Shown one piece after another: positions 16,057 to 32,574 of a stretch of DNA of 64,000 bases. The DNA is from Gemmatimonadota bacterium (GTDB taxonomy: Bacteria > Gemmatimonadota > Gemmatimonadetes > Longimicrobiales > Gaopeijiaceae). The notes below the pieces were generated by a model. That model saw only the letters and a program-made list of their open reading frames with translations, was not told the DNA's origin and did not search any database. The stretch spans positions 496,001-560,000 of the forward strand of contig JAUIEJ010000001.1 of NCBI GenBank assembly GCA_030428885.1. Direction: 5' to 3'. The position numbers and the translations under genes were made by a program. Position 1 is the first letter of the stretch. Each line of letters starts with the position of its first letter.

Positions 16057-19034
16057 CCGTCTCCCCCGAGGGTCGTGAAGGACTGCACGTTGGACAACGT
16101 CGTTCCCCACAGGTTCGACACCTCGGCCCGGACGTAGTAGGTCGTGACGTCGTCGGGCACGGTGAGCGTCAGGTTGACCGTCGTCTCGGTGGCGCCCGCC
16201 CCGGCGCTCAGGGGCGTGCCCGGGAGCACGAAGGAGGTGGCGAATCCGGCGTCGGTGGACACCCGGAACACCACCGTCGTGGCCGCCTGGAAGGGCGTGA
16301 CCCGGGCGGTGGCGTCACCGCTGACGATGCTGATGTTGGTGATGGGGTCGAGGGTCACGGCGGGCGCCAGGCCGAAGTAGGCCTGGGCCGGCGCGGACCA
16401 CGCCGAGCAACCGCCCAGGTTGCAGGCGCGCACACGGTACTGCACCAGGCCCGCAGGGGGTGCGGCGTCGGTGTACTGGACGACGTCACCCGCGACGGCG
16501 ATCACCGTCGGCGACCCCGAGCCCACGAGGAGTCGTTCCACTTCGAACCCGGTCTCGTCGGGGCTGTTGTCGGTCCAGTCGACCTGGAGTCCGGCGGCGC
16601 CCAGGGGCGTCACCGACGGGGCCGACGGTGCCGCGGGGGGCGGCGGCGGCGGAGCCGTGGTGAACGAGACGATGCCGCCCTGCTGCTGCCCTTGGGCGTT
16701 GGAGGCCACACCCCGCACGAAGTACTGGGTCGAGGGGACGAGCCCGCTCATGGCCACCACCACCTCACCTGCCGGATCGGTGCCGGCCACCACGGTGGAC
16801 GGTGACGTCGCGGCGCCGGTGAGGTTGGGATCGGTGCCTACCTGGAACTCCACGGTGGTGGCCGCTCCCCGGGGATCGACGAAGGCTCGCAGATCGGCGC
16901 CGTCGGGCAGGACGCCCTGGGGGGAGAGGGTGATGACCAGGGGACCGGGCACCACCGGCGCCACGTAGGTCAGCCAGGGGGAGAAGGGTGAGCACCCGGC
17001 CACGTTGCACGCCCGAACCCGGTACCGGAGGTCACCGGCCGGGGGGCCGAGGTCGATGAACGACGTCTGATCCGCGGCCGCGGTGAAGGCGGCCTGCTGG
17101 CCCGTGAGGACGGACTCGCGCTCGATCTCGAACCCGTCTTCGTCGGCGCTGGCGTCGTTCCAGCCGAGCCGCACGCTTCCGCCGCCGTTGTCGGAAGCCA
17201 TGAGACCGGTGGGGGTGGACGGGACGTTCAGGGTCTGGAACGAGAGGATGGCCCCCACGGCCTGGCCGCCGGCGTTCATGGCCACGGCGCGCACGTAGTA
17301 CGTGGCCCCGGGGAGTAGACCCGTGACGGGGGTGAAGACCGATCCCGCGAGCGTTCCGCTCACGGTGGAGACCGGCGACCGGTTCGGCTGGGCCAGGGCC
17401 GGATCCGTGTCGTACTCGAACTGCACGGAGGTGACGCGGCCCTTGGTGTCCACCACGGCCTCGAACACGGCGGATCCGAGGCCCGTGACCTGGGGCGGCC
17501 GGGTCGTGACCGCGGGACCGGGAATGCTGGGATCCCCGGGGGGCGGGGCGATGACCGGATCGGACCAGGCCGAGCACCCGTTGGCGTTGCACGCCCGCAC
17601 CCGGTAGGACTGGGTGCCGAAGGGAGGCATGGCATCGACGTAGGCGGTGATGTTGGGTCCCACCGAGCCGATCACCGAGGCGACGCCGTCGACCTGCCGC
17701 TCGATTTCGAAACGGGTTTCGTCGTCGCTGTTGTCGTCCCAGGCGAGGTGGATGCGCGACGTCAGATCCCGGCTCGCGGTGAGCCCGGAGGGGGCGTCGG
17801 GAGCCACCAGGGTGGTGAAGGTGAAGATGTCGCTCACCGTCCGGCCCAGGGCGTTCTCGGCGATGATGCGGAAGTAGTAGGTGGTCCCGTCCATGAGCTC
17901 CACGAGGGACCGCAGCACGGGCACGGGCCCTCCTGCGTCGGCCGGGACGGACGTGGGCGGGCTCAGGACGCCGTCGGAGAGGTCGGGCTGGACGCCGTAC
18001 TCGAACCAGACGGTGGTGGCGAGGCCCTTGGGATCCACCTGACCGACCACCGTGGCTCCGTTGGCGGTGACGCCCTGGCTCGACACGCCCCCGACGCCGG
18101 GGGCGGGATCGCGGACGGTGACCACGGCCAGGGCGCTGACCCCGTCGTGGATCGCCATGACGTCGGCCGAACCCAGACCCACGGCCGTCACGGCGCCATC
18201 GTCCGTCACCGTCACCACCGACGGGTCGGAGGACGTCCAGACCGAGGAACGGCCGGGAACGGGGTTCCCGGCGGCATCGAAGAGGAAGAGCTGGAGGGTG
18301 GAGGCCCCCCCGGGGGGGAGGGTCAGGGACGAGGGTACGAACTCGGCCGCCACCACCACGGCGTGGACCGGGGCGGGAACGGTGCGGACCGTGGCCTCGA
18401 AGCCGGCCTGCAGGGACCCCTCGCCGTCGGCGAGGGCCACGGCCTCGAACCCGCCGCCGTCCCGCTCCCGGACCGACAGCACGTCGGGCGTGAGGGACTG
18501 CCAGTTCACCGTGGCTCCGGGGATCGGGTCACCGGTGGCGAACACCACCTCGCCGTCCAGAGGCACGGCCTGGCCGAAGGTGTCGAACGACGGAATCGGA
18601 GGGAGGTCGAGGCCGGCCGCCACCGGGGTGAGGGCGACGGACACGTCGCTCTGACGGCCCGCCACGAGCTGGAATCGCGATTCCCCGACGAAGAGGTCGT
18701 CGGTGCCGCGCCGCACGTCGATCTCCAGGATGGCATCGGTGTCCCGCCCGGCGACGTCGACGTCGATGGGGACCTCCAGTGCCTCGCCGTCGGCGCTCAC
18801 CGACAGGGAGCGGTCGTACAGGACCCGGCCCGACCCCTCTTCCAGCACCCGCACGGAGAGGTTGTCGGCCTTGTCGAAGGCCGCCTGGGCCCCGTCGTCG
18901 ACCTGGAGGGCCCGGATGGCGACCCGGCTCCCCGCCGAGTCCGCGGCGGGATCGTGGAAGAACCCATCGGAACACGCGGCCATGCCCAGGCCGCACACCA
19001 CCACCCATCCACCCCGCGCGAGGGTGCGCATCAT
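16053..19034 (-). CDS. Giant FN3/Ig-like repeat surface lipoprotein
   Basis: This encodes 993 residues beginning with a lipoprotein signal (GMAAC lipobox near residue 21). The N-terminal domain (AFDKADNLSVRV...EIDVRRGTDDLFVG...FATGDPIPGATVNWQS) is paralogous to that of the shorter neighbour. BIG2 Ig-like units follow at about 235-310. Then come four copies of a roughly 100-residue module (VDPKGLATTVWFEYG, VDTKGRVTSVQFEYDTDP, VDPRGAATTVEFQVGTDP, TPFQAATTVVFRVSTD), interleaved with three FN3 domains, each with the signature D(D/A)(N/S)S(D/P)(D)ET/EDGFEIER and YRVRACNxxGCSxxS. Such proteins are usually surface adhesins or matrix components. Start and stop overlap both neighbours by 3-4 bases. 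Confidence 0.75.
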   Translation of the reverse strand: MMRTLARGGWVVVCGLGMAACSDGFFHDPAADSAGSRVAIRALQVDDGAQAAFDKADNLSVRVLEEGSGRVLYDRSLSVSADGEALEVPIDVDVAGRDTDAILEIDVRRGTDDLFVGESRFQLVAGRQSDVSVALTPVAAGLDLPPIPSFDTFGQAVPLDGEVVFATGDPIPGATVNWQSLTPDVLSVRERDGGGFEAVALADGEGSLQAGFEATVRTVPAPVHAVVVAAEFVPSSLTLPPGGASTLQLFLFDAAGNPVPGRSSVWTSSDPSVVTVTDDGAVTAVGLGSADVMAIHDGVSALAVVTVRDPAPGVGGVSSQGVTANGATVVGQVDPKGLATTVWFEYGVQPDLSDGVLSPPTSVPADAGGPVPVLRSLVELMDGTTYYFRIIAENALGRTVSDIFTFTTLVAPDAPSGLTASRDLTSRIHLAWDDNSDDETRFEIERQVDGVASVIGSVGPNITAYVDAMPPFGTQSYRVRACNANGCSAWSDPVIAPPPGDPSIPGPAVTTRPPQVTGLGSAVFEAVVDTKGRVTSVQFEYDTDPALAQPNRSPVSTVSGTLAGSVFTPVTGLLPGATYYVRAVAMNAGGQAVGAILSFQTLNVPSTPTGLMASDNGGGSVRLGWNDASADEDGFEIERESVLTGQQAAFTAAADQTSFIDLGPPAGDLRYRVRACNVAGCSPFSPWLTYVAPVVPGPLVITLSPQGVLPDGADLRAFVDPRGAATTVEFQVGTDPNLTGAATSPSTVVAGTDPAGEVVVAMSGLVPSTQYFVRGVASNAQGQQQGGIVSFTTAPPPPPPAAPSAPSVTPLGAAGLQVDWTDNSPDETGFEVERLLVGSGSPTVIAVAGDVVQYTDAAPPAGLVQYRVRACNLGGCSAWSAPAQAYFGLAPAVTLDPITNISIVSGDATARVTPFQAATTVVFRVSTDAGFATSFVLPGTPLSAGAGATETTVNLTLTVPDDVTTYYVRAEVSNLWGTTLSNVQSFTTLGGDG

Positions 19035-20131
19035 GGAGTGCCTCCGAATCGAAGCGCGAGACCGATCTCGACGCCGTTGAACCCCGTCTCGACGGCTTCC
19101 CGCACCTCGAGATTGCCCAGATGGGCGCGAACCGAGGGGACCCAGATGGTGGTGCCCACGGGCACCTCGGCGTCGAGTCCGATGCCGAGGTCGTAGCCCT
19201 GCTCCACCCCGTCGTCCCGGCGGAACAGTCGCCCTTCGATCCGGGGCTGGAGCAGAATCCCGCCCACGGGACTCCGCAGTCCGCCCCCGGCCAGGATCAG
19301 GTCCTGAGACGCCAGCGTACCGTCGTCGGACAGGAAGGTCCCGCGTTGCCGCGTGTGGAAGATCCCGTAGACGAGGCCGGTGGAGCGGGCGCCTACGGGG
19401 AATCCGAGGCTTCCCAGCAGCTCCAGGCGATTGCCGGAGCGGAAGAGATTGGCGTCGTCGGCCAGATCATCTTCGTGATGGTAGTAGCTGAACCGGAGCG
19501 TGCCCTTGGTGGCCGCGCCCAGGGTGCCGTCGAGGGCCGCCACGAGTCGGAGCACGTTGCCGGGACGGTAGGCGAAGGTCTCGGTCTCGAGCGGCGAGAA
19601 CTCCCGCCGCACGATGTAGGAGGCGGACAGTCCCACCCCCACCGAGCCCACGGCATGGGCCGTGGCCATGGAGAGGCCGGCGCCCCCGCCGGTGCCCCAG
19701 TTGGAGATGGCGAAGGGCAGCAGTTCCGATGCCACCGCCCCGGCCACCCGGGACTCGGAGAGGGACTGGGTCTCGACGCCCGTGGGGAGGAGCGCCACCG
19801 CCGACACGCTGGTGGCGCCGCCCCGACCGGCGAAGGTGAGGCTCACCTGGGTGTCGGTGAGTCCCTGGATCTCCAGCGTGCCCCGGGTGGGGTCTTCCAG
19901 TTCGCCCCGGGCCCAGGTTCCGGACACGCCCAGGGACACCCGGGACCCCAGGGCCGCCGTGCCGAAGAAGGGGAGCGCCGTGAGGGTGATGGACTCCACC
20001 GACGCCGCTTCCGGGTCGTCGAAGGAGTAGCGCTGGAGGAGTCCCCCCACGCCGAGTCCGGTGCTCTGGGAGGCTGCCGGGGAGGCCAGAGCGACCACGG
20101 CGACGACGGCGAGCCAGGCAGGGCGGTTCAT
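19031..20131 (-). CDS. Outer-membrane beta-barrel protein, operon partner of the FN3 lipoproteins
   Basis: The 366 residues begin with a signal peptide (WLAVVAVVALASPAASQ). The mature part is made almost entirely of alternating hydrophobic/polar strands with glycine-rich turns, ending in VEIGLALRFGGTP, a plausible barrel C-terminus. Segments such as GTLRFSYYHHEDDLADD and LVYGIFHTRQRGTFL look like long strand pairs. It resembles putative outer-membrane transporters of unknown substrate. ATGA overlaps on both sides tie it to the CsgG-like gene upstream and the giant lipoprotein downstream. Confidence 0.65.
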   Translation of the reverse strand: MNRPAWLAVVAVVALASPAASQSTGLGVGGLLQRYSFDDPEAASVESITLTALPFFGTAALGSRVSLGVSGTWARGELEDPTRGTLEIQGLTDTQVSLTFAGRGGATSVSAVALLPTGVETQSLSESRVAGAVASELLPFAISNWGTGGGAGLSMATAHAVGSVGVGLSASYIVRREFSPLETETFAYRPGNVLRLVAALDGTLGAATKGTLRFSYYHHEDDLADDANLFRSGNRLELLGSLGFPVGARSTGLVYGIFHTRQRGTFLSDDGTLASQDLILAGGGLRSPVGGILLQPRIEGRLFRRDDGVEQGYDLGIGLDAEVPVGTTIWVPSVRAHLGNLEVREAVETGFNGVEIGLALRFGGTP

Positions 20132-21432
20132 GAGCCGCCTCCGGGCCGGGGAATACGAATGAGGATGGAGCCGGACTGGGGTCCGATCTTCTCGCCGGGG
20201 CCGAGTTCCTCGAAGGGATCCCGGCCACCCACGTCGGGGATGATCCGTTCGATGGGGAGGTACGTGCCCCGGCGGTCCAGCCAGAGTTCCCAGGGGGACG
20301 GACGGAGGAGGTCGCCGCCCAGGGCCGCGACCTCGTCGGGATCGTCCTGTTCGGCTTCTTCCAGGTCGGTGGCTTCCTGGAGGGCCGTAGCCGCGTCCTC
20401 GAACTCGGGGTCGAGGCTCACCGCTTCCTCGAAGGCGAGGCGCGCGTCGGTGTATCGGCCTTCGTCCTGGGCCTCGAGGCCGGTGCCGAAGGCCAGGAGC
20501 GCCTGGAGGTTTTCGGTGCGCCGGCGTCCCACCTGCTCGCGCTCCGCAGCCGTGAGCTGGATGCCCATGGCGTCGAAGAGGCCCAGGGCCAGCGCGCCTT
20601 CCGCTTCGAAGAACCGATCCAGCGCTTCATCCACCTCCACCGGCGTGGGCGCGGCTTCGGGCGCCGCCGTCTCCAGGAGAGCCGCCGACAGGAGCAGTCG
20701 GGCGGCATCGCCGCCGACCTGGCCCTGGGCGACCCGCTCGGCCCCCAGCATGCGGCCTCCCCGGACGCCGGTGGCCGGGTCGACGTAGCCGGCGTCGGTG
20801 CGGGCGATCTCGTCGGCCAGGAGCTGGACTTCCACCCGCTCCAGGACGTCGATCCGCCCCGTGGCGGCCATGTCCGTGGCGAGCATGTGGGACAGGGCCC
20901 GGCTCAGGGAGCCCAGGGTGGCGTCCGATCCGACGAACGAGAAGGGGAAGATGGCCAGGGTCCCCTGGGTCGGTGCCCCCTGGGCCACGGCTGCTTCCTG
21001 GGCCAGAGCCTCGCGCACGCGCGATTCGACCAGTTGACGTCGCAGCCAGGTGATGCGCTTCTCGGCCTCCCGGGCCAGGGGCTGGGATCCGTCCACCGCC
21101 AGAAACCGCTCGTAGGCCGCGATGGCCTCGGCATACTGCCCGTCTTCTTCGAGGAGCGCCGCCCGCATGTGCAGGCTGGCGGGGTGGGTCGGAGACGAGG
21201 CCAGGGCACGGTCCACGACCTGGGACGCTTCGGCCGTCTCGCCTCCCGCCCGCAACGATGCGGCGAGACGCCAGGACAGATCGGGGTTGTCTGCGTCGGT
21301 CGCCAGGGCCATGCGGAGTTGTCCCGCGGCCTCCGGGGGGGGCGCGATCACGCCGCTCGGTTGGGTAGCACAACCGGCGAGGAGCGCGCCGAACACGAGA
21401 CCGGTGAAACACCGGCCGTTGATGAGCGGCAT
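20128..21432 (-). CDS. TPR lipoprotein with CsgG-like domain
   Basis: The protein has 434 residues. The lipobox LLAGC is at about residue 19. TPR helices follow (PDLSWRLAASLRAGG, PASLHMRAALLEEDGQYAEAIAAYERFL), then a CsgG/FlgO-type core (TLAIFPFSFVGSDATLGSLSRALSHMLATDMA...IDVLERVEVQLLADEIA...GRMLGAERVAQGQV), another TPR pair near 330-370, and a proline-rich tail. CsgG proteins form outer-membrane lipoprotein channels or accessory rings for curli and flagella. It is first in a four-gene operon with a barrel and two giant lipoproteins, so a role in building or exporting a surface structure is plausible. The upstream promoter supports the start at 21432. Confidence 0.75.
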   Translation of the reverse strand: MPLINGRCFTGLVFGALLAGCATQPSGVIAPPPEAAGQLRMALATDADNPDLSWRLAASLRAGGETAEASQVVDRALASSPTHPASLHMRAALLEEDGQYAEAIAAYERFLAVDGSQPLAREAEKRITWLRRQLVESRVREALAQEAAVAQGAPTQGTLAIFPFSFVGSDATLGSLSRALSHMLATDMAATGRIDVLERVEVQLLADEIARTDAGYVDPATGVRGGRMLGAERVAQGQVGGDAARLLLSAALLETAAPEAAPTPVEVDEALDRFFEAEGALALGLFDAMGIQLTAAEREQVGRRRTENLQALLAFGTGLEAQDEGRYTDARLAFEEAVSLDPEFEDAATALQEATDLEEAEQDDPDEVAALGGDLLRPSPWELWLDRRGTYLPIERIIPDVGGRDPFEELGPGEKIGPQSGSILIRIPRPGGGS

Positions 21433-21474
21433 GGGCGGGTCTGTACGAGGGGGGGCGGGGGGCATGGGGGCTCG

Positions 21475-21504
21475 AAGATAGGGGCGGCTCTCTCAGGGGG
21501 GCAA
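21475..21504 (-). promoter_or_regulatory. Candidate promoter of the CsgG/barrel/FN3-lipoprotein operon
   Basis: On the minus strand, TTGCCC (21504-21499) and TATCTT (21480-21475) are 18 bases apart, placing the transcript start near 21468, upstream of the ATG at 21432. The -35 box lies inside the inverted repeat at 21500-21519. Confidence 0.45.
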
Positions 21505-21519
21505 TGATGCGGTATTGCC
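21500..21519. promoter_or_regulatory. Inverted repeat between the two divergent CsgG-like genes
   Basis: GGCAAT and ATTGCC form perfect 6-base arms around 8 bases. The repeat overlaps the -35 of the minus-strand promoter and sits 79 bases before the plus-strand start, so one factor bound here could control both directions. No regulator is encoded adjacent. Confidence 0.4.
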
Positions 21520-21597
21520 ACAGCCGGGGGACCTGCTGAATGCTTAGGGGTAGGAGGTTGGACCCCATCCCGTCACCCCGCTCCTTCGGGAGGCCCC

Positions 21598-22311
21598 ATG
21601 CACCGTCGCCTGGTCCCCCTGCTCGCCCTTCTGACGGTGTTCGCCCTTCCCGGGGGCGCCGCCGGCCAGGATGAACAAGACCTTCGCCCCGGCATCGCGG
21701 TGATGCGGTTCGACAACGCGGGATCCCACGGGGGCGATGCGGAGGAAGGAGACTTCGAGGCCCTGGAAGTGGGACTCCAGGTCATGCTCGCCACCGAGTT
21801 GTCCCAGAATCCCGCCCTTCGGATCGTGGAGCGGAGCGCGGTGGAGAGCCTTCTCGATGAGCAGGAGCTCGGGACCGAGGGTCGGGTCGAGCCGGCGACC
21901 GCCGCCGAGATCGGCCGCCTCGTGGGGGCCCGCTACATGGTGATGGGGAGCTTCGTCGACGTCTTCAGTCAGGTGCGCATGGACGCCCGGATCGTGGACG
22001 TGGAGACGGGCGAGCTGGTCCGGGCCCGGGGTGTGCAGGACCGGCGGGAGCAGATCTACGACATCCTCATCGAGCTGGCCGACGCCATCACGGAGGGCCT
22101 GGAACTGCCCAGCCTTCCCGAGGACGTGGCGGCTCAGCGCCAGGAGCAGGAGTCGCCGCCGATCCCGGCCGTGATCCTCTACTCCCGGGCGATCCGAGCG
22201 GAGGACGCCGGGCGCACCGACGAGGCCCGGGAACTCCTGGAGCGGGTCACCACCGACTGGCCCGACTTCACCCAGGCCCGGGAGCGCCTGGAGCAGTTGC
22301 CTACGGGGTGA
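21598..22311 (+). CDS. Secreted CsgG/FlgO-like protein
   Basis: The 237 residues begin with a signal peptide (PLLALLTVFALPGGAAGQ) and no lipobox. The CsgG-like core is IAVMRFDNAG...LQVMLATELSQNPALRIVERSAVESLLDEQEL...GRLVGARYMVMGSFVDVFSQVRMDARIVDVETGELV. A C-terminal TPR-like pair follows (LYSRAIRAEDAGRTDEARELLERV). It is divergent from the lipoprotein CsgG homologue at 20128 and convergent, 5 bases apart, with the FHA/protease gene. It probably works in the periplasm with the CsgG-type lipoprotein, as auxiliary factors do in other CsgG systems; this is inference. Confidence 0.75.
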   Translation: MHRRLVPLLALLTVFALPGGAAGQDEQDLRPGIAVMRFDNAGSHGGDAEEGDFEALEVGLQVMLATELSQNPALRIVERSAVESLLDEQELGTEGRVEPATAAEIGRLVGARYMVMGSFVDVFSQVRMDARIVDVETGELVRARGVQDRREQIYDILIELADAITEGLELPSLPEDVAAQRQEQESPPIPAVILYSRAIRAEDAGRTDEARELLERVTTDWPDFTQARERLEQLPTG

Positions 22312-22316
22312 GGCGG

Positions 22317-23663
22317 TCAGTCCCGCAGGAAGGCGGCGATCCGGAAGCCGGGAACGGCCACGAGACGACGGTCTCCCGGGGCTGAGGACGCCCCCACCAG
22401 GACCCCCATCACCCGGCCGTCTTCGCCCACCACCGGGCTGCCGCTGGCCCCGGCGGCGCCCCATCCTTCCAGGGTGAGCCAGTCGTCCTGAAGGCCCGCC
22501 ACGGCGCCCGCCATGGCCACGGCCCGGGGCGGCGGGCCGTCGGCAGGGGCCGGGGTCGCCCCCGGGAAGCCCACCAGGAGCACCGGAGTGCCCACCGCCA
22601 GGGTGTCGGGACGGGGATTGATGCCGGCGATGCTCCGGTTGGCCCCCACGAGTCGCCGGGCCTGGAGAAGCGCCAGGTCGACCTCGTCGGAGGCCCGAAT
22701 CAACTCGGCGGGCCAGGTCTGGGTGCTTCCCGAGAATTGGACGCCGATGCGCACCGCCCTCTCGCCTCCGTCGGGATCCGACACGGCGTGGCGGTTGGTG
22801 AGGATCCGACCGTCGGTGGACACGGCAAACCCGGTGGAGATGGTGCGTCGGCCGTCTGCGAACTCGGCGTATACCATGACCACGGCGGGCCGGATGGCAG
22901 CCAGCAGTCCCACGGCATCGAGGTCCGCGGCGCGGCGCTGCCCCGACACGGTGGCCGTGGCGGCGTCGATCTGGGCGCGCAGGCGGGCGAGTTCCACCGG
23001 ATCGGGGCGGCCCGAGCGGGCCATGGCCTCGAGTTCGGACTGGAGTTCCCGCACCCGGGACTCGGACGCCGAGAGGGCGTCGGCGAGGCCGTCGATCTCG
23101 CCCTCCAGGGCAGCCACCGCCTGGCGTCCCGCGGCCAGGGCGCTGTCGGTGCGAGCCACCAGGGCCGCCCGCTCCTGCTCCCACGCCTCCATGGCCGACG
23201 CCCGGCCAAGGGTCGACAGGGTCACGGCGGCCACGGCCCCCACCACCACCACGGCCAGGAGAGCCATGAGGACGTGGTTGCGCCGGGCGAGACCCCGGGC
23301 GGCGTCGTCGGGGGGCGGGGCGTGGGGGCCGGCCACCACCTCCACCTCGGGGCCCTCCCATCCGAACCGGATGCGCTGACCGACCCGGACCCGGACCGGC
23401 GCCTCCACCCGGGCCCCGTCGACCCAGGTGCCGTTGCGGCTTCCGAGATCGCTGATCCACCACTCGCTTCCCCTGCGCTCGAAGCGGGCGTGGAGGGCCG
23501 ACACGTGGAGGTCGGTGCCGGGATCGAAGCGCAGTCCCGTGCTCTCGGCCCGTCCCACGTCCACCCGGGCCTCGGGGAACCGTCGCATCTCGCCGGCCCG
23601 CCCGCCGGTCCAGATCCGCAGGTGGAGGGCCGGCGCCGACGAGTCCGGGGTCCCGCCGCTCAG
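22317..23663 (-). CDS. FHA domain, membrane anchor, coiled coil and trypsin-like protease fusion
   Basis: The 448 residues contain, in order, an FHA phosphothreonine-binding domain (about 13-110: LHLRIW, VDVGRAESTG, SALHARF, DLGSRNGTWVDG), a transmembrane helix (VLMALLAVVVVGAVAAVTL), a coiled coil of about 90 residues, and a trypsin/HtrA-like protease domain. The protease has His in ILTNRHAVSD, Asp in EVDLALL and Ser in GASGSPVVG. FHA proteins of T6SS loci bind threonines phosphorylated by PpkA; a fused protease is unusual. The first ATG (23588) would cut off the first FHA strand, so I place the start at CTG 23663. That codon overlaps the phosphatase stop (CTGA) and follows GGAGG by 4 bases. 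Confidence 0.78.
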   Translation of the reverse strand: MSGGTPDSSAPALHLRIWTGGRAGEMRRFPEARVDVGRAESTGLRFDPGTDLHVSALHARFERRGSEWWISDLGSRNGTWVDGARVEAPVRVRVGQRIRFGWEGPEVEVVAGPHAPPPDDAARGLARRNHVLMALLAVVVVGAVAAVTLSTLGRASAMEAWEQERAALVARTDSALAAGRQAVAALEGEIDGLADALSASESRVRELQSELEAMARSGRPDPVELARLRAQIDAATATVSGQRRAADLDAVGLLAAIRPAVVMVYAEFADGRRTISTGFAVSTDGRILTNRHAVSDPDGGERAVRIGVQFSGSTQTWPAELIRASDEVDLALLQARRLVGANRSIAGINPRPDTLAVGTPVLLVGFPGATPAPADGPPPRAVAMAGAVAGLQDDWLTLEGWGAAGASGSPVVGEDGRVMGVLVGASSAPGDRRLVAVPGFRIAAFLRD

Positions 23664-24586
23664 AAGTCCTCCATGGACAGCAACTGGCGCCCCACCACCT
23701 CACCCGAGACCGGGGGTGGGAGGGCGTCGCCGTCGAAGCGGGCCAGGATCACGGTGATGTTGTCCGGGCCGCCTCGGGCGTTGGCCCATTCCACCAGTTC
23801 GGTGCCCGCCGCCGCCAGCGAGGTACGATGGGCCAGGGCCCGACGGATCTCGGTGTCTTCGACCTCTCCCGACAGGCCGTCGGAGCAGAGCAGCACCACG
23901 TCGCCCCGACGCAGGGGCTGGTGGGTGAGTTCGACGTCCACCGCGGGGGCGCTTCCCAGGGCCTGGAGGATCAGGTTCGCCCGGCGGTCGGTCCGGGCCT
24001 CGGTGGCGTCCAGTGCCCCCGATTCCTGGAGCATCTGGACCACCGACTGATCCCGGGTGAGCTGGGTGAGGACGTCCTCCCGGAAGAGGTACGCCCGGGA
24101 GTCGCCCACCTGACCGAGGATCAGGTGGCTGTCCAGGACCCCCACGGCGGTGGCCGTGGTGCCCATGCCCCCCAACTCCGCCTCCCGCTGGGCCCGGGAG
24201 TGGATCAGGGTGTTGGCCTGCTCCAGGGCGGCCGCCAGGTGCTGGGCGAAGGTCTTGGGCACCAGGCGCCGCTCGTCCCCCCACTGGGTGCTCATGATCC
24301 CGTGGACCACCCGAGTGGCGATGCCGCTGGCGGTGGCTCCCCCGGCCGCTCCCCCCATGCCGTCGGCCACCAGGAGCAGGGCGCCCCGGGGGCCCACCTC
24401 GAAGCTTTCGGGGCCGTGCAGCCCCGCCCGATCGTCGCCCCCGTAGAGGAGGGGACCGTCGGGATTGCGGCCGTCCAGGCTCGCCACCAGGAACTGGTCC
24501 TGGTTTTCGGTGCGCTTCCGCCCGGGGTCGGTGACGGCCAGGACTTCGATGCGGAGGGATCGGCCCGGGAGCAGGTCGCCGTTCAC
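23660..24586 (-). CDS. PP2C-family Ser/Thr phosphatase (PppA/Stp type)
   Basis: This encodes 308 residues from the GTG of a GTGA overlap with the kinase. The metal-binding PP2C motifs are all present: KRTENQDQFLV, LLVADGMGGAAGG, GMGTTATAVGVL, GQVGDSRAYL, LLCSDGLSGEVED and GGPDNITVIL. It dephosphorylates Ser/Thr residues and would oppose the adjacent kinase. In characterised T6SSs the PppA phosphatase switches off the system by removing the phosphate on the FHA partner. The kinase, phosphatase and FHA genes are translationally coupled in that order. Confidence 0.9.
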   Translation of the reverse strand: MNGDLLPGRSLRIEVLAVTDPGRKRTENQDQFLVASLDGRNPDGPLLYGGDDRAGLHGPESFEVGPRGALLLVADGMGGAAGGATASGIATRVVHGIMSTQWGDERRLVPKTFAQHLAAALEQANTLIHSRAQREAELGGMGTTATAVGVLDSHLILGQVGDSRAYLFREDVLTQLTRDQSVVQMLQESGALDATEARTDRRANLILQALGSAPAVDVELTHQPLRRGDVVLLCSDGLSGEVEDTEIRRALAHRTSLAAAGTELVEWANARGGPDNITVILARFDGDALPPPVSGEVVGRQLLSMEDF

Positions 24587-26253
24587 GGGCGCCCCCCCAG
24601 GAGCTCGAGAAAGGTCCGGTATCCTTCGTCGCCGGGATCGAGTTGCACCGCCCGCCGGGCCCACGGGAGGGCCTCCGTCGCCCGGTCCTCCATGCCGTAG
24701 CGCTGCGCCAGGACGAAGGCGGCGTACGCCCGCACCGAACCCGGCAGTTCGGCGGTGTCCCAGACCCGGGTGGCGCTGTCGGCGACGGCGGCCAGGGTAG
24801 GGGCGGAGATGTCGCCCAGGAGAAGGTCCTCCTGGCGCGCCAGCAGGGCCCGGGCGCCGTCGGCGGTGAGGGCCGCGGGCGTGACCGGGGGCGTGGTCGG
24901 GGTGGTCCCGGTGGTCGGGGGCGTCACGGGATCCGGGGGCGGCGGCTCGCTTCGTTCCGGATCGGCGCCTCCCGATCCCGACGACGGCGTCACCGTCGCT
25001 CCGCCCCCTTCCGTGGGGCCGTCGGGGGAGGGGTCGTTTTCGCCGTCGGAGGAGGCCTCGCCGGGTCCCTGGGCCGAGGTCGGGGCGCCGACGGCCGGCG
25101 TCGACGTGGCCGACCCCGGATCGTCGGAGCCACCGAGCCACTGGACGAGACCGAACCCGCCGGCGACCACCACCAGGGCGCCCACGGCCAGGGGAGCGAA
25201 CCGGCGCAGGGGCGAGGAAGCGCCGGAGGCGACCCGGGCGCCCACCGGCGCCTCGCCGACCCGGGTGGCGGGGACCGACTCGGCGCCGACGCCCGCCGGG
25301 GCCGCCGGCGATCCCGGCGCGTGGGACGGCGCCGCGCCGCTGCCGGTGCGGGCGCCTCGGACGAGGCCCGCCACGAAGGCCCCGGCCGACGGGGGCCGAT
25401 CTTCCCGCCGGCGCTGAAGCCCGTGGTCCACGGCGTCCTGGACGCCCTCGGGCACCACCAGGTCGGCGGCGATCTCCGAGATGCGCAGCGCGTCCTGGGT
25501 GAGGCGCTCCACCATGAGGTTCTGCGTCGTGGACGACCGGACCGGCAGCCGGCCGGTGATCATGCGGACGAAGAGGAGCGCCAGGGAATAGACGTCGCTG
25601 CGCAGATCCAGGGCGTCACCCGTGAGCTGCTCCGGGCTCATGTACTCGGGGGTGCCCACCACGAAGCCGGTGCGGGTGACTTCGGCCTCCTCTCCGTCGG
25701 ACGACCCCTTGGCGATGTCGAAGTCCACCACCTTCACCACGTCCCGGCCGGTGCGGTCGGTGACGAGCATGACGTTGCCGGGCTTCAGGTCCCGGTGGAC
25801 GATGCCCATGTGGTGGGCCGCATCCAGCGCTTCGCCGATCTGCCGGGTGATGTCGAGGCCGCGGCGAAGGGGCAGTCTCCCTTCGGCGTCCAGCACGTCC
25901 GACAGCGATACGCCGTCGATGAACTCCATGGCCAGGAACTGGTGGCCGTCGTCGGTGTCGCCGAAGTCGTAGACCGTGCAGACGTTCGGGTGGTTGATGG
26001 CCGAGACGTTGCGAGCTCCCCGGAGGAACCGATCGGCGGCACCGGGCTCGGCCGCCACCCCCGCCTTCAGGACCTTGATGGCGTCGAGCCGCCCGAAGCG
26101 CAGGTGTTCGCCCAGGTAGACCGATCCCATGGCGCCGGCGCCGAGCTGCCGGACGATGCGGTACCGACCCGCCAGGACCGTTCCCACCAGGGGATCGGCG
26201 GGCGTCGGGGAGGGGTCGGAGGACTCGGTCGGGGGCGGGGGAGCGTCGGCCAA
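24583..26253 (-). CDS. Membrane Ser/Thr protein kinase (PpkA-like) with TPR-like sensor
   Basis: The 556 residues begin with a Hanks-type kinase domain at about 28-295: glycine loop GAGAMG 38-43, Lys60, catalytic HRDLKPGN 153-160 with Asp155, activation segment VGTPEYMSPEQL. The magnesium motif reads DFD (177-179) instead of DFG. A long Pro/Ala/Gly linker, one membrane helix (about 360-380) and a periplasmic Ser/Pro-rich region follow, ending in a helical TPR-like module (AYAAFVLAQRYGMEDRATEALPWARRAVQLDPGDEGY). The context (tssM upstream, PP2C and FHA downstream) makes this the kinase of the T6SS threonine-phosphorylation pathway. Confidence 0.85.
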   Translation of the reverse strand: MADAPPPPTESSDPSPTPADPLVGTVLAGRYRIVRQLGAGAMGSVYLGEHLRFGRLDAIKVLKAGVAAEPGAADRFLRGARNVSAINHPNVCTVYDFGDTDDGHQFLAMEFIDGVSLSDVLDAEGRLPLRRGLDITRQIGEALDAAHHMGIVHRDLKPGNVMLVTDRTGRDVVKVVDFDIAKGSSDGEEAEVTRTGFVVGTPEYMSPEQLTGDALDLRSDVYSLALLFVRMITGRLPVRSSTTQNLMVERLTQDALRISEIAADLVVPEGVQDAVDHGLQRRREDRPPSAGAFVAGLVRGARTGSGAAPSHAPGSPAAPAGVGAESVPATRVGEAPVGARVASGASSPLRRFAPLAVGALVVVAGGFGLVQWLGGSDDPGSATSTPAVGAPTSAQGPGEASSDGENDPSPDGPTEGGGATVTPSSGSGGADPERSEPPPPDPVTPPTTGTTPTTPPVTPAALTADGARALLARQEDLLLGDISAPTLAAVADSATRVWDTAELPGSVRAYAAFVLAQRYGMEDRATEALPWARRAVQLDPGDEGYRTFLELLGGRP

Positions 26254-26257: not shown

Positions 26258-26872
26258 TCACCCCGTGGCGGAAGGCGACGGACCCGGTGCTCCGGGGTCT
26301 CCGCAGTTGGGGTCCCGCTCGGCGATCTCCTCGAAGCGCACCCGGGCCGGGTCGTGCCGGGGCACCGACACGATCTCCAGGGGGAACGCCTGGAGGGTGG
26401 ATCGCCCGCACCCGCGGATCGTGCGCACCTCCACCAGGAGCACCTCGATGGTGCCCCCCTCGGCGGTGGTCTCGGGGCGGATGCCCACGCGCTCGACCCG
26501 GATGCGGTCTTCGGTGGTCATGCGCCCGGCACCCACCACCACGACCATGCGGCTGGAGAAGTCCACGGCGGGTGCCGGCGGGGGAGAGGACTGACGGGAG
26601 GTGGCGCGCCCCCACGCCTCCTGGTACGCCGCTTCGGTGTCGGCCACGATGCGCACCGAGTCGGCGATGCCGCCCCGGTCGCCGTAGTAGAGGCGATCGC
26701 GCTGCTCCACCGGAGCGGGGGGTGGGGGCGGAGTGTATGCCTGGGGACCGGGACCGCCGGACGATCCTCCCCCGCAGGCTGCCAGGGCCACCAGAGCGGC
26801 GGCGAGGACGATCCGAGGGGGGGCGAAGGCGCCGGCACGCCGGGCGACGAAGGTTGGGTCGATTCGAGTCAT
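26258..26872 (-). CDS. Lipoprotein with PrcB-like domain, encoded directly after tssM
   Basis: The 204-residue protein has a lipobox LAAC near residue 33, a Gly/Pro linker, then a region like the C-terminal domain of PrcB-type proteins (AYQEAWGRATS, VDFSSRMVVVVGAGR, DRIRVERVGI, TIEVLLVEVRTIRGCGRS, PLEIVSVPRHDPARVRFEEI). Two cysteines in the domain could pair. It overlaps the tssM stop (ATGA) and is 4 bases before the kinase. No canonical TssJ, the outer-membrane lipoprotein that binds TssM, is visible in the cluster, so this protein may take that place. The family match is by eye and moderate. Confidence 0.55.
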   Translation of the reverse strand: MTRIDPTFVARRAGAFAPPRIVLAAALVALAACGGGSSGGPGPQAYTPPPPPAPVEQRDRLYYGDRGGIADSVRIVADTEAAYQEAWGRATSRQSSPPPAPAVDFSSRMVVVVGAGRMTTEDRIRVERVGIRPETTAEGGTIEVLLVEVRTIRGCGRSTLQAFPLEIVSVPRHDPARVRFEEIAERDPNCGDPGAPGPSPSATG

Positions 26873-29800
26873 CGGACGATCCGGGATACGCAGTTCAGGC
26901 CGTCGAGGACCCCGCGGCGGAAGATCGGCGGGGAATCGGTGAGCCTCAGCTCGGCCCGCAGGGCCTGGCCGGCTCCCGTGTTGGTCCACTCGAGCCGGTA
27001 GGCGTCCCCGCCGAGATCCGTCCAGTCGGCGGTCTCGAACAGTCGGAACAATGCCCACGTTCCGGGGCGCGGCGAAAGGAGGGACACGTCTTCGTCGCCG
27101 ATGCGGGCCAAGACCTCGGCCTCCCGGGCCTCGGCGCCGATCCACACGAAGGTCTCGCTTCCCTGGTTCGTGGGCCGGGTCTCCTGGCGCACGTTGTCGA
27201 CCCGCACCGTGATGGACGAGAGCACCTGGGTGTTCTCGGGGGTCATGGCGAAGCTCACCCGGGGCTCACCCCGATCGAAGAGGGCCTCGGAGATGGCCAG
27301 GGCCTGGTCCAGGAAGGCGACGAAGGCATCGGTGGGACGGGGGTCGGCGCTCCGGTTCTCCACCACCCGGTTGTTGCGCTGGGTCAGGAGTCCCCGTTCC
27401 TCGAGGCTCGCGATGTAGTCGGAGAGGAGGCTTTCTCCGGGCTTGAGGGCCTCCATGAGGTCGTCCATGGAGACCTCGTTGGGAGCCGTGCGCTCGAAGG
27501 GGTACCCCGCCAGGAGTCGGTTGAAGTCGCTGCAGAACGAGGCGCCCTCGCCGTTCAGGCGGGCGTCGCCGAAGTTGCCCAGGAGGCCCCGGGATCGATC
27601 CAGGGGCTGCTCCAGCAGTCGGCGCACCGCCGAGCCGGCCCGGCGCGCCAGGTCGGGCTCCAGGAGGAACTGGTCGGCCATGGCCACCACCGCCCCCTCG
27701 CCGTCCTGCACCGCCCGGTTGGCGCCCTGGACCGCTCCCTGATCGTCGGGGCTCTGCTGGACCTCTTCCACGGCGTCGCCCAGCGACCGCAGCGCCTGGA
27801 CGTAGGCGTCGTTGGACTCCCGCACCAGCCGCGGATCCTCGTCGGGCTCGCCGCCGTCTTCGGCGGGAGGGGGCGCCGGATAGATGGAGAGGAGCGGCTG
27901 GAAGGCCTCGGGGAGGGGCCGGGTGTTGCGGGCCACCAGGGCGATGGAGCCCAGAAGGGGCGAGTCGGCGTCGGAGAGGCCGTCGAGGCGCTGGGCAGCG
28001 TCGGCCACGCTCCGGAAGGGCACCACCTGCGTGGCCTCCAGGAAGCGGACCCATTCGTCGGCGTACTCGGCCCGGTAGCGCGCCTTCACCGTGTCGCCCA
28101 GGGCCTCGATGTTGGTGAGGGCCTGGGTCTGCTCGCCCAGGACCCACTCCTCGCCCTGGAGCATCTCGGCGGCGTCCACCGCCTGGACCCACTCGTAGGC
28201 GCCCACCGTGAAGTGGGGTTCCACCACCTCGTCGTTCTGGAGAAGGCCCTGGGACCCGGGGACGTGGGTGGCCAGACGGATCTCCTCGCCGCGGGTCGCC
28301 GCCGCCCCCAGGAGCTGGGCGTAGAACTGGTCCACCCCGGACATGCTCCGGAGGAACCGCCGCGACCGCTCCACCGTGGCCCCTTCCGGCGCCGTCTCCA
28401 GGGGGTTGCCGTCCTGGATCACCTGGCCGTAGAAGGTGAACTGGCGGCGGAGCAGTCCCTCCCACTCCTCGTCCCGGATCCGGGCCGCGTCCCAGTTCGC
28501 CAGGACGGCGTCGGGAAGGAACGGCACGGTGCTCCTGGTCGGGTGGTCGGTCGTGATGAGGTAGGCCTTCAACGCGTCGTACGTGGGCCGGAACTCGGTG
28601 GACTCGTCGGGGGCGTCGGGAAGCCCCGTCAGGCGGTCCAGGAGCAGGCGCCGCCCCTCGCCCCCCAGGGCCGTCTCGAAGGCCCTCAGATAGACCAGGA
28701 GGCCCGGGTCGAAGGCCCGTTCACCGGCGTAGAGGCCCCACCGTAGTCCCATGGGGACGCCGTCGGTGCGATAGGCCCGGATGGCCGCCAGCTCGGCGCG
28801 GAGCGTATCGAGGCGCTCCACCACTTCCCGGGAGGGAATGGCCGAGCGCTGGATCTCGGAATTCTCCACGACGGCGGAGGCGGCTTCGACTCGCCCGATC
28901 ATCTTCCGGTTGCCCCGGAACGAGAGGACGAGGCCCACGATCCACACCAGCCCCACGAGTCCCACCGCCGTGAGGAGGCCCCGCCGCAGCACGTCGACCC
29001 GGGCGCCTCCGCTGGTCCGGACCCGGGCCACTTCGTCGGGCATGAGCACCGACTGGAAGAAGGGCTTCAGGAACGCCCAGTCGGGGACGCGGCGCGTGCG
29101 GCCGCTGGAGGTCCGCTGGGCCGCCGCGGCCTGGACCTGGGCCAGGTCGAACACCTGGGTGGCGCCCATGGACGAGGGGTCGGAGGCCGTGGGCGCCGCC
29201 GGGGCCGCTGCGCCGGGCTCGTCGACCATGAGGGCCCGGACCCCGGTGAAGTGGAAACCTCGGAGGAACGGGCTGCGGCCCAACTGACTGGGACGGCACA
29301 GCTCCACCAGGAACCGCCGCAGGTGGCCGTGGAGCTTCTCCAGTTCCCGGGGAAACTCGTAGACCCCGGCCTGCACCTCGGCGTCGCGCTCGCGCTGGAG
29401 GAACTCGCGCCGCTTGAGCCGCAGGGCGTGGATCAGCTCGCCCAGGTACCGGTCCACTCGGGCGCCCTCCGCCTCGGCGTGGGGGGCGGCTCCCGGATCG
29501 GCCAGGGGCAGCGTGGCCCCCAGCGCCTGGGCCGCCTCCCGCTCCCCCAGGGTTCGGACGAAGTCGTCGTAGTAGGGAACACGGTCGGCCCGGGTGAAGA
29601 GCACGTACACCGGGAGTTGGATGCCCAGGGCCTCCGACGCCTCCACCAGGCGCTCCCGGAGCTTGCGGGCCAGGGCCGTCACCGACTCGGCGGCGCCGGG
29701 TTGGGTGAACTCGTCGCAGCCGACGCAGACCAGGGCCACCCGGGGGGCCTGACGCTCCAGGCCGATGGCGGCCCGGAAGCGGGCGGGCTGGGTGTGGGAG

Positions 29801-30327
29801 AGCAGCGCCTCCCACTTCTCGGCGTCGTCCAGCAGCGCCCCCCCGGCCTCGACGAACACCGTGTCGTCGGCGTACCAGAGATTGGCGATCTCGGTGGGAG
29901 CCACCGCGTCGCCCTGGTGGGTGTCGCCCTCCAGCAACTCGGTGTTCAGCCCCGACTCCACCACCACGGTGGTCTTGCTGGCGCCCCGGGGGCCCAGGAC
30001 CAGGACGGTGGGGAGCTTCCGGAGGTTCTTCTCCTGGGCCTTGGGGCTGGCGGCCAGACGCTTGCGGGCCGCCTTGAAGATGGCGCCGAGCTTGTCCTCC
30101 CGGGCCGCCGCCTTCTCGCCCCGGATCCGACCCTTCCACTGCTTGGAGAGGAAGCGGAACACCACCGCCGCCGCCACCATGCCGAAGGCCAGGAGGGCCA
30201 TCCGGATCCGAAAGACGGCCTGAGGCGGAACGGCGTCGCCCAGCACCAGGCCCACCACCCAGGCCAGGAGGCCGAAGACGGCCAGGGTGAGGGCGGTGAG
30301 AAGCCAGACTCTGAGGCGGGTCCGCAT
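26869..30327 (-). CDS. tssM: T6SS membrane-complex protein TssM (IcmF)
   Basis: The 1152 residues match TssM/IcmF in size and layout. Two N-terminal membrane helices lie at about 8-30 and 40-60, a cytoplasmic NTPase-like domain carries GPRGASKTT at 112-120 (Ser replaces the glycine before the lysine of the usual P-loop), and a third membrane helix lies near 455-475 (GLLTAVGLVGLVWIVGLVL). The long periplasmic region ends in a beta-rich domain that in other systems contacts TssJ. TssM spans the envelope and with TssL forms the docking complex for the baseplate. It lies 18 bases after tssL. Confidence 0.93.
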   Translation of the reverse strand: MRTRLRVWLLTALTLAVFGLLAWVVGLVLGDAVPPQAVFRIRMALLAFGMVAAAVVFRFLSKQWKGRIRGEKAAAREDKLGAIFKAARKRLAASPKAQEKNLRKLPTVLVLGPRGASKTTVVVESGLNTELLEGDTHQGDAVAPTEIANLWYADDTVFVEAGGALLDDAEKWEALLSHTQPARFRAAIGLERQAPRVALVCVGCDEFTQPGAAESVTALARKLRERLVEASEALGIQLPVYVLFTRADRVPYYDDFVRTLGEREAAQALGATLPLADPGAAPHAEAEGARVDRYLGELIHALRLKRREFLQRERDAEVQAGVYEFPRELEKLHGHLRRFLVELCRPSQLGRSPFLRGFHFTGVRALMVDEPGAAAPAAPTASDPSSMGATQVFDLAQVQAAAAQRTSSGRTRRVPDWAFLKPFFQSVLMPDEVARVRTSGGARVDVLRRGLLTAVGLVGLVWIVGLVLSFRGNRKMIGRVEAASAVVENSEIQRSAIPSREVVERLDTLRAELAAIRAYRTDGVPMGLRWGLYAGERAFDPGLLVYLRAFETALGGEGRRLLLDRLTGLPDAPDESTEFRPTYDALKAYLITTDHPTRSTVPFLPDAVLANWDAARIRDEEWEGLLRRQFTFYGQVIQDGNPLETAPEGATVERSRRFLRSMSGVDQFYAQLLGAAATRGEEIRLATHVPGSQGLLQNDEVVEPHFTVGAYEWVQAVDAAEMLQGEEWVLGEQTQALTNIEALGDTVKARYRAEYADEWVRFLEATQVVPFRSVADAAQRLDGLSDADSPLLGSIALVARNTRPLPEAFQPLLSIYPAPPPAEDGGEPDEDPRLVRESNDAYVQALRSLGDAVEEVQQSPDDQGAVQGANRAVQDGEGAVVAMADQFLLEPDLARRAGSAVRRLLEQPLDRSRGLLGNFGDARLNGEGASFCSDFNRLLAGYPFERTAPNEVSMDDLMEALKPGESLLSDYIASLEERGLLTQRNNRVVENRSADPRPTDAFVAFLDQALAISEALFDRGEPRVSFAMTPENTQVLSSITVRVDNVRQETRPTNQGSETFVWIGAEAREAEVLARIGDEDVSLLSPRPGTWALFRLFETADWTDLGGDAYRLEWTNTGAGQALRAELRLTDSPPIFRRGVLDGLNCVSRIVR

Positions 30328-30345: not shown

Positions 30346-31062
30346 TCAGCCCGCGACCGCGAGGGATTCGATCCCCCCCACGGCGCCGGACAGGAGGAAG
30401 CGGAACAGGATCAGGAGTACGATGGTGAGGACCAGCGACGAAATCGCCACCAGGGCGAAGGTCCGCAGCCAGGGGTCCCGGGGCGGGACCGGCACCTCGG
30501 CGGGGAGGCCCGCGGAGGGGGCCAGGGGTTCGGGACCCTGGCGGATCCGGGCGATCTTCTGCCCCACCTCGGCCACCAGGGCCCGGAGGTCGCCGTGTTC
30601 GGTGGATCCGAAGCGTCCTCGGAAGCCCAGGAGCAGGCAGAGGTGATACACCTCCAGCGTGTCGGCGAGTTCGGTGGAGTCCTGCCGCCCCAGGAGATCG
30701 TGGAGATGGCGGAAGAAGGTCTCGCCGGCCATGTGGTCGCCGAAGATCTCCTCCTGCAGCGGCTGGCGCGCCCAGTCGGCGAACATGGCCTGGGGGCTGT
30801 TCAGGACCGACTCGTCCAGGAACGCCACGAAGGCGTAGATGGCCCGCTTCACGAGGTCGGGGGAGTACCCGGCCTGGCGGGCCTCCCGATCCGAGGCCGC
30901 CAGCAGCGATTTCATGCGGGTGCGGAACTGGCCCGCGTCGGCGGCGACCTGACGCCCGGTGCGCACCCGCACGGTGACGGTGAAGGCGTCCTGGAGGGCG
31001 TGGGCCAGGCGACCGCGGTGGGCCGGGAGGCCCGGGGCCGGAGGTGCGTCGGTGGGGGCCAT
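30346..31062 (-). CDS. tssL: T6SS membrane-complex protein TssL (DotU type)
   Basis: This encodes 238 residues with the DotU core: AIYAFVAFLDESVLNS, WARQPLQEEIFGDHMAGETFF, LADTLEVYHLCLLLGFRGRF, and a single C-terminal membrane anchor at about 205-228. It lacks a peptidoglycan-binding OmpA-like extension. TssL joins TssM in the inner membrane and contacts the TssK baseplate adaptor. It follows tssK1 by 7 bases and precedes tssM by 18. Confidence 0.93.
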   Translation of the reverse strand: MAPTDAPPAPGLPAHRGRLAHALQDAFTVTVRVRTGRQVAADAGQFRTRMKSLLAASDREARQAGYSPDLVKRAIYAFVAFLDESVLNSPQAMFADWARQPLQEEIFGDHMAGETFFRHLHDLLGRQDSTELADTLEVYHLCLLLGFRGRFGSTEHGDLRALVAEVGQKIARIRQGPEPLAPSAGLPAEVPVPPRDPWLRTFALVAISSLVLTIVLLILFRFLLSGAVGGIESLAVAG

Positions 31063-31069: not shown

Positions 31070-32413
31070 TCAGTCGACGAGGACGGCGAATTCGTAGCGG
31101 GCGGCCCCGAGGGCCTCGGGGGTGTAGAGCCCGATCTCCCCGGTGTCCACCACCGAACTCCAGCAGGGGTCGGTGCGCTCCACCCGGAAGTAGCGGTGGC
31201 CCACCTTGGGCGACAGCGCCGACGGGGGGGATTCGACGTAGGTCAGCCCCATGCCCGGATACGCCTCCTTTACCAGGCGCACGATGTGTTTCGCCGAGCA
31301 GACCTTGGCGAGACGGGGCACGCCGGCGGCGAGCTCCGGGGCGGGCCCGTCGGGGCGCACCACGAGCCACCACTCGGCGGTGGGGGCCAGGCAGCGGCGG
31401 TCGTCCACCGTGCCCTTGGAGAACGACGGCTGGACCGGCTCCAGGGGGATGACGGCGGCTCCCGTGGGGAGCACCACGTCGAGGTTGCGCCGGATGTGAC
31501 GCACGAGTCCGTCGAAGGTGCGCTCGAGGTCGGTGTGGTCGTACGCCGGCAGGTCGGCGATGGACGCCGTGGCCGTGAAGGTGCAGAGGGCGCCGCCCAG
31601 GCGGGCGAGTTCCAGGTACAGCTCCTCGGGATGGCCCGTGCGGGTGGCCAGGAGGTGCCGGAGGGGCGGCAGGGCCGAGTGGAGCGCGTGGGAAAACCAG
31701 AACCCGGCGATGTCGGAGCCCGCGTAGCTCGACGTGTCGCCGCCGGCGCTGCCCCGGGTGGCCGACAACGTCCGGGTCTTCTCCTCGATGAGCTCCACGA
31801 CGCGGCGCAGCCGGTCCACGAGTCCCCGGCACCCCCGGAGCTGGAGCACCGGCGGGATGAAGGCGGGGTCGTAGATGAAGTGACCCGAGCCGTCGCGTCG
31901 AATGCGGCCGAAGGGCAATCCGATCCAGTCCTCCGGAAGGTCCACGTCCAGAACGATCCGGAGGTTCTTGATCCCCACCTTCACGCGCGACGAGGTGCCG
32001 CCGGTGGTGTCGTCCACCACGTCGACCTCTCCCACACGGTAGCGGGCCGCCGCGGCGTCCTCGGCGGTGCAGTTGGCACCTTCGGGGCGGTACGGGGGCA
32101 CCGCGAGCATCACCACGTGGGACTCCCGGGTGGGGGAGAACCGCTCCCGGACCTCCAGGGGCACCGGAGCCGGATCCTCGGGGATCTGCACGGCCAGTCC
32201 GTCGGGGAAGACGGCCTTGAGGCGAAGGATCGAGACGGTGCCGTTGAGAAGCGCCTCGTCGTCGAGTTCCGACGTGACGACGCCCCAGGGGGTGGGGAAG
32301 AGGGTCTCGAGGGCGAACGACGTCGAGTCCTCGAAGTACCGGCTCTGCAACTGGAAATGGTGCTGAGCGAGGTGCATGCCTTCGCTCCAGACCACCGGCG
32401 ACAGGTTGCGCAT
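31070..32413 (-). CDS. tssK: T6SS baseplate adaptor TssK, copy 1
   Basis: The protein has 447 residues, the usual TssK length. Signatures include the N-terminal PVVWSEGMHLAQHHFQLQSRYFEDS, LNGTVSILRLKAVFPDGLAVQIP, and the C-terminal shoulder and head region (AYDHTDLERTFDGLVRHI, VESPPSALSPKVGHRYFRVER). TssK trimers link the baseplate to TssL/TssM. The ATG at 32413, preceded by GGAG, begins directly before the conserved motif; the frame is open to 32515. It heads the minus-strand arm of the cluster and is paralogous to the gene at 34066. Confidence 0.92.
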   Translation of the reverse strand: MRNLSPVVWSEGMHLAQHHFQLQSRYFEDSTSFALETLFPTPWGVVTSELDDEALLNGTVSILRLKAVFPDGLAVQIPEDPAPVPLEVRERFSPTRESHVVMLAVPPYRPEGANCTAEDAAAARYRVGEVDVVDDTTGGTSSRVKVGIKNLRIVLDVDLPEDWIGLPFGRIRRDGSGHFIYDPAFIPPVLQLRGCRGLVDRLRRVVELIEEKTRTLSATRGSAGGDTSSYAGSDIAGFWFSHALHSALPPLRHLLATRTGHPEELYLELARLGGALCTFTATASIADLPAYDHTDLERTFDGLVRHIRRNLDVVLPTGAAVIPLEPVQPSFSKGTVDDRRCLAPTAEWWLVVRPDGPAPELAAGVPRLAKVCSAKHIVRLVKEAYPGMGLTYVESPPSALSPKVGHRYFRVERTDPCWSSVVDTGEIGLYTPEALGAARYEFAVLVD

Positions 32414-32574
32414 CGCGCTCCGGGAGGGGTTGAAGGGCCGAGGCTCGGCGGACGCGCGCGTCCGGGCGTTTGCCCTGGATCGCGCCATAGCCATAATCTT
32501 ACGACTCCCGCCCACGGAGGGACAGCCGCCGCCGGCGGGTGTCCTCCGCCCCTCGCCTTCCCCTCGCCCCCTCC
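32414..32574. promoter_or_regulatory. Divergent intergenic region between tssK1 and the GEFTRxF protein
   Basis: These 161 bases separate two divergent genes. The only AT-rich island is at about 32485-32503 (CATAGCCATAATCTTACGA), which offers TAATCT on the plus strand and TAAGAT on the minus strand as -10-like boxes. I cannot assign convincing -35 boxes, so this is only the probable location of the promoters. Confidence 0.3.

Follow-up and report, generated by a model that had tools for sequence, protein, structure and literature searches.

An FHA domain joined to a DegS/HtrA-like protease in a T6SS operon of a Gemmatimonadota bacterium

The operon and the fusion protein

The stretch of DNA analysed here (the window, 64,000 nucleotides) contains the T6SS core genes TssA, B, C, E, F, G, H, K, L and M, Hcp and VgrG, together with ImpE. 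Behind tssM, on the minus strand, lie genes for a lipoprotein, a Ser/Thr kinase, a PP2C phosphatase and, in the last place, a protein in which an FHA domain and a trypsin-like protease are fused:

21598-22311, plus strand: CsgG/LpoB-like gene, convergent (Pfam CsgG, 4.7e-18)
22317-23663, minus strand: fusion of FHA domain, transmembrane helix, coiled coil and HtrA-like protease, 448 aa, probable CTG start
22320-22919, minus strand: DegS/HtrA-like protease domain, residues 249-448 (Pfam, alignment, fold and profile)
22443-22445, 22677-22679 and 22788-22790, minus strand: codons of the protease triad, respectively Ser407, Asp329 and His292
22926-23216, minus strand: long helical segment, residues 150-246, predicted to form a coiled coil (AlphaFold2 helices)
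23217-23273, minus strand: single transmembrane helix, residues 131-149 (hydropathy and charge balance)
23334-23627, minus strand: FHA domain (Pfam, AlphaFold2 strands, conserved phosphothreonine-site residues, GarA-like by profile)
23660-24586, minus strand: PP2C-type Ser/Thr phosphatase in PppA-like position (Pfam PF13672, 3.7e-13)
24583-26253, minus strand: Ser/Thr kinase in PpkA-like position, with one transmembrane helix and a predicted periplasmic tail (Pfam PF00069, 3.7e-41)
25258-25272, minus strand: juxtamembrane PATRV motif of the kinase (Thr330), candidate phospho-docking site
26258-26872, minus strand: conserved lipoprotein between tssM and the kinase (alignment of relatives)
26869-30327, minus strand: TssM (Pfam)
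30346-31062, minus strand: TssL (DotU; Pfam)
31070-32515, minus strand: TssK, copy 2 (Pfam)
34066-35418, minus strand: TssK, copy 1 (Pfam)
35574-48942, plus strand: remaining T6SS genes, i.e., TssB, TssC, Hcp, ImpE, TssA, TssE, TssF, TssG, TssH (ClpV) and VgrG

The ends of these genes overlap at tssM and the lipoprotein (ATGA), at the kinase stop and the GTG start of the phosphatase, and at the phosphatase stop and the start of the fusion (CTGA, 23660-23663). The CsgG-like gene is convergent with the fusion gene, with 5 bases between them; along with TPR/CsgG-like and beta-barrel-like genes, it belongs to a segment (19031-22311) that many host-order loci carry alongside the fusion. The phosphatase matches the NCBIfam Stp1 model with E-value 1.6e-61, yet stays below the cut-off of that model, and the kinase extends for 186 aa beyond its transmembrane helix. 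The lipoprotein has no Pfam match; its relatives share a conserved Cys pair in addition to the lipobox Cys. TssJ (PF12790) gave no match above cut-off in any of the five genomes searched, and the lipoprotein is a possible stand-in for TssJ or a possible substrate of the protease. The T6SS cluster has two TssK paralogues, both retained in related loci (e.g., L172, L176, L247 and L253), and immediately after vgrG lies a DUF6931 gene (48956-49567; PF22011, E-value 5.3e-37), possibly a T6SS companion.

The open frame of the fusion runs from stop to stop at 22317-23699, and its GC content by codon position (0.78/0.58/0.89) is coding-like and matches that of the neighbour genes. There is no ATG, GTG or TTG upstream of CTG 23663 within the frame, and a protein begun at the first ATG (23588) would lack the initial FHA strand, a conserved element among relatives; CTG 23663 is, therefore, the likely start codon. 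It is preceded by GGAGG, and the same CTGA overlap of start and stop is found in genomes G003 and G004.

Two Pfam domains are found in this one frame, both above the curated cut-offs: FHA (PF00498) at residues 35-101, with E-value 8e-15, and Trypsin_2 (PF13365) at residues 277-421, with E-value 6.5e-19. No PDZ domain was matched by Pfam, and the 448-residue chain stops with the protease domain. An AlphaFold2 model, built from the window protein and 25 sequences from related loci (mean pLDDT 86.4), predicts a β-structured FHA fold, helices at residues 131-216 and 222-246, and a β-structured protease domain. The predicted fold of residues 249-448 aligns with DegP, DegS and DegQ (VIA-align) with Z of about 25 and rmsd of 1.9-2.3 over about 180 residues. 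Profile comparison places the FHA part nearest to GarA and OdhI, and the protease nearest to enzymes of HtrA type.

In the alignment of 48 relatives, the window protein included, the phosphothreonine-site residues Gly37, Arg38, Ser55, His58 and Asn77 of the FHA domain are kept in 47/47 rows that cover the region. The catalytic His292 is found in all 48 rows and Ser407 in all 47 with sequence at that position, while Asp329 is conserved in 44/48; the remaining rows (L036, L153, L157 and L159) have Glu at this column and Asp immediately before it. The fusion of domains is real and conserved, and the protein is probably active, to judge from its sequence. The hydrophobic helix that separates the two domains is flanked by more positive charge on the FHA side in 36 of the 44 rows that remain when four rows with tandem FHA or without FHA are omitted; in seven rows the flanks are equal, and in one the balance is opposite. 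This is what would be expected if FHA were cytoplasmic and the protease periplasmic, so that we predict a single-pass protein of the inner membrane. Two relatives fit the reading favored below less well and count against it: L030 has no clear transmembrane helix, and in L035 the coiled coil is replaced by an Ala/Pro-rich stretch.

The first-pass annotation had proposed an FHA-protease fusion, an HtrA-like enzyme with His, Asp and Ser in place, the kinase-phosphatase-FHA gene order, and membership in a T6SS operon, all of which are borne out by the Pfam matches, the overlapping gene ends and the structural comparison. The proposed topology, with FHA inside and the protease outside, stands as a prediction. 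A predicted trypsin fold and homologues with both domains, on which that proposal depended, were also found.

Occurrence with and without a T6SS

We surveyed 154 genomes of the host order with a profile of the fusion (E ≤ 1e-25) and with TssC (PF05943). The fusion was detected in 25 genomes and TssC in 35; 24 genomes have both, one has the fusion only, 11 have TssC only, and 118 have neither. A T6SS is thus found in 24/25 genomes with the fusion as opposed to 11/129 others (Fisher p 1e-18, with relatedness not corrected), which is the recurrence in other T6SS genomes that the first-pass annotation had suggested looking for. The single genome with the fusion only, G137, encodes a relative with tandem FHA domains.

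The gene neighborhood is likewise repeated. TssM lies within the examined stretch in 14 of the 24 host-order loci (window included), with nine others cut by contig ends; in L031, TssM is absent from the stretch, although TssC sits on the same contig. The gene immediately upstream of the fusion codes for PP2C in 20 of the 23 loci where this place is visible; the three loci without PP2C beside the fusion (L031, L032 and L033) count against the preferred reading. The CsgG-like gene is near the fusion in 21/24 loci, and contig ends truncate the other three.

The notion that every T6SS of the host order has the fusion was rejected in view of the 11 TssC-only genomes. Ten of these were examined (G146 was left out). 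Eight have a more distant T6SS, with TssC 55-61% identical to that of the window and nothing in the stretch that matches a kinase, FHA or a protease; in the other two (G031 and G048) TssC is 80 and 78% identical, and the contigs, of 9 and 6 kb, end too soon. Among plasmid records, two match the fusion query, and none covers 80% of it.

Beyond the host order the picture is different. In a draw of 395 genomes from the phylum, the profile is found in 137 and TssC in 53; outside the host order, the corresponding numbers are 120 and 29, with only 12 genomes having both. In 11 of these 12, the listed places are on different contigs or lie 379 kb from each other; for G241 the place is not listed. We examined 20 stand-alone loci (L146-L165, of which L160 is only 7 kb long) from three families of the class. 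No T6SS match was seen in them; PP2C adjoins the fusion in all 20 and a kinase is seen in 19. The cassette consists here of a zinc-ribbon double-FHA gene, a zinc-ribbon kinase, PP2C and the FHA-protease, and nearby are MurQ (18/20), AnmK (17/20) and the double-FHA gene (17/20). None of the latter three is found in 28 host-order stretches, and in the window's own genome MurQ is located elsewhere (C19). An AmiB-like amidase is also near the cassette in L147. The fusion is, therefore, not a speciality of T6SS, because this cassette occurs widely across the class in the absence of such a system; the T6SS framing of the first-pass annotation holds for the host order and does not cover the family as a whole.

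Several further relatives were seen. In L038, L040 and L140, all from Gemmatimonadota, two FHA domains precede the protease, and no TssC match was found in the tandem-FHA genomes G137, G431 and G432. A protein of Planctomycetota (L048, 9905-11740) has the succession of FHA, transmembrane helix, coiled coil and trypsin domain, and is encoded beside a kinase with an FHA domain of its own. There is a T6SS on the same contig, with its nearest gene about 24 kb away and another FHA gene and kinase closer to it, so we count this locus neither for nor against a link with T6SS.

In the midpoint-rooted tree of the fusion (L037, which has no FHA part, was dropped), a branch supported at 100/99 sets the 23 host-order rows apart. 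The T6SS-linked members are a single clade, and five stand-alone rows of family f4 adjoin it (97/94). Such nesting favors, as far as the tree goes, the stand-alone form having come first. In the kinase tree, the kinases of the host order, those of the stand-alone cassettes and three kinases that neighbor a T6SS in family f5 cluster together, away from the 25 others in the window's own genome (support moderate, 89/85); the host-order kinases split into two groups, with L031 and L172 divergent. In the f5 genomes G170, G211 and G266 a kinase, with neither PP2C nor the fusion, lies close to a same-type T6SS (no kinase was seen in G215), so that the tie of the kinase to T6SS is older or wider than that of the fusion.

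Candidate phosphothreonines and the proposed mechanism

The FHA domain may be expected to dock on a phosphothreonine, and several places for it were considered. The scheme assumed in the first-pass annotation as classical, in which PpkA phosphorylates a stand-alone FHA protein, is too narrow: according to PMC3953482, it is TssL that the kinase of Agrobacterium phosphorylates, and the phosphothreonine so formed is bound by Fha. A scheme in the manner of Fha1, with the phosphate on the FHA protein, was rejected as the default assumption, since the alignment of relatives shows no conserved Thr in the cytoplasmic linker of the fusion. An N-terminal phosphothreonine of TssL, as in Agrobacterium, is also unsupported, as the TssL tail has no conserved Thr in 14 aligned rows.

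A recurrent Thr motif is found in the kinase, between the kinase domain and the transmembrane helix. The pattern P.T[RKQ][VILM] occurs there in 23 of 36 cassette kinases (11/17 in the host order and 12/19 stand-alone), compared to a mean of 0.5 and a maximum of 3 in 2000 shuffles. It was devised on these very rows, which counts against the preferred reading. In a second set of 20 new loci, 19 of which yielded a linker with a transmembrane helix, the unchanged motif was found in eight kinases (shuffled mean 0.3, maximum 3), and 11/19 are without the strict form; the rows are mutually related, so that shuffles overstate their independence. The strict motif is present in 0/21 other own-genome kinases with a transmembrane helix, and a looser form,.T[RKQ][VILM], in 17/19 cassette kinases of the second set versus 2/21 of these controls. 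We regard the Thr of this motif as a candidate docking site for FHA, one that offers a residue-level test of the scheme.

In the reading that we consider most likely, the FHA domain is the means by which the kinase recruits or activates the periplasmic protease. The phosphate would be carried by a Thr, most probably that of the kinase's juxtamembrane linker (PxTRV), or else by a subunit of the T6SS membrane complex; the cytoplasmic FHA domain of the fusion would bind the resulting phosphothreonine; and docking would bring the DegS-like protease to the kinase and the membrane complex, recruiting it or clustering it via the coiled coil. PP2C would be the off switch that reverses the signal, and in the host order the output would be coupled to the T6SS membrane complex. 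The lipoprotein at 26258-26872, the kinase tail and TssM are candidate substrates. To this joint explanation, i.e., phosphothreonine docking that recruits or clusters the protease, reversal by PP2C and a tie to the T6SS membrane complex, we assign a probability of about one half. The identity of the bound phosphothreonine, the control of the protease by binding, the substrate, the regulation and the direction of signalling, and hence phospho-controlled proteolysis across the membrane, are what we infer from the observed domains, active-site residues, gene order and co-occurrence.

The direction of signalling could also be reversed. The protease domain or the coiled coil may sense damage or a substrate, with FHA only tethering the protein, as a scaffold, to the phosphorylated T6SS membrane complex, like stand-alone Fha proteins, for which such a role in T6SS is described in PMC3953482. 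The fusion does occupy the position of the FHA gene in the operon, and is the sole one of five FHA places in its genome that lies on this contig; the catalytic Ser and His, however, would be superfluous for a pure scaffold, and they are kept in all examined members with sequence there. We consider such outside-in signalling unlikely. Somewhat better founded, albeit still doubtful, is an envelope-stress module that is merely housed in the T6SS operon, monitoring the cell wall with no role for the protease in T6SS firing. It would account for the position beside MurQ and AnmK outside the host order and for the fact that 120 of the 137 profile genomes in the phylum draw are outside that order and mostly devoid of TssC; set against it are the overlapping gene ends from tssM and the lipoprotein and from the kinase through the fusion, and the finding that only 1/25 host-order genomes with the fusion, that of the tandem-FHA relative, is without T6SS. 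Chance neighborhood or mis-assembly, with the fusion functionally unrelated to kinase or T6SS, is contradicted by the recurrence of the gene order in three families of the host order and in three further families without T6SS; nothing was seen in its favor, and it is extremely improbable.

These observations can be combined in a tentative evolutionary scenario, which we rate as possible but doubtful: a wall-surveillance cassette, usually found in Gemmatimonadota beside peptidoglycan-recycling genes, may on a single occasion have been taken up into the T6SS operon of one order, where sensing of periplasmic wall damage or attack would be coupled to T6SS firing via phospho-docking that regulates proteolysis across the inner membrane. 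The T6SS-free sister cassette hints that the pathway may derive from cell-wall signalling. The presence of the fusion gene in a T6SS operon suggests a link between this weapon and regulated proteolysis in the envelope. If the preferred reading is true, post-translational control of T6SS includes periplasmic proteolysis under the direction of a phosphate mark in the cytoplasm, which is not a known step of the PpkA-PppA-Fha pathway.

Comparison with known systems

No description of a membrane fusion of FHA and trypsin domains was found in the PMC literature searched, and the known systems each share only some of its features. In gene content it resembles the PpkA-PppA-Fha pathway, which also has a kinase with a membrane helix, a PP2C phosphatase and an FHA protein encoded beside the genes of the T6SS membrane complex; the window FHA domain, moreover, has intact phosphothreonine-binding residues, as do its relatives. 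The differences are that the FHA protein of the window is membrane-anchored and bears a predicted periplasmic protease, and that the kinase shows no vWA match. TagH (TIGR03354) similarly has an FHA domain within a T6SS locus; the fusion, however, scores 22.8 bits against the cut-off of 120.25.

On the protease side, DegS is a membrane-anchored enzyme, and the fusion resembles the DegS/HtrA proteins in its predicted trypsin-like fold, His-Asp-Ser triad and N-terminal anchor. It differs from them in having no PDZ domain and a cytoplasmic FHA domain in front, and it scores well below the cut-offs of the NCBIfam families TIGR02037 (23.9 of 416.2 bits) and TIGR02038 (17.7 of 422.95 bits), as well as of MarP (NF033740; 28.7 of 250 bits). 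Fusion of FHA to the membrane peptidase PrsW, mentioned in PMC3482391, is another case of a phosphopeptide-binding domain joined to a membrane peptidase, but PrsW is a multi-pass enzyme of another kind.

In the LapD-LapG system, a signal in the cytoplasm is relayed across the inner membrane to control a periplasmic protease, as we propose for the fusion. The signal there is c-di-GMP and the protease is a separate protein, whereas here the signal would be phosphothreonine, and its reader and the protease are parts of one polypeptide chain.
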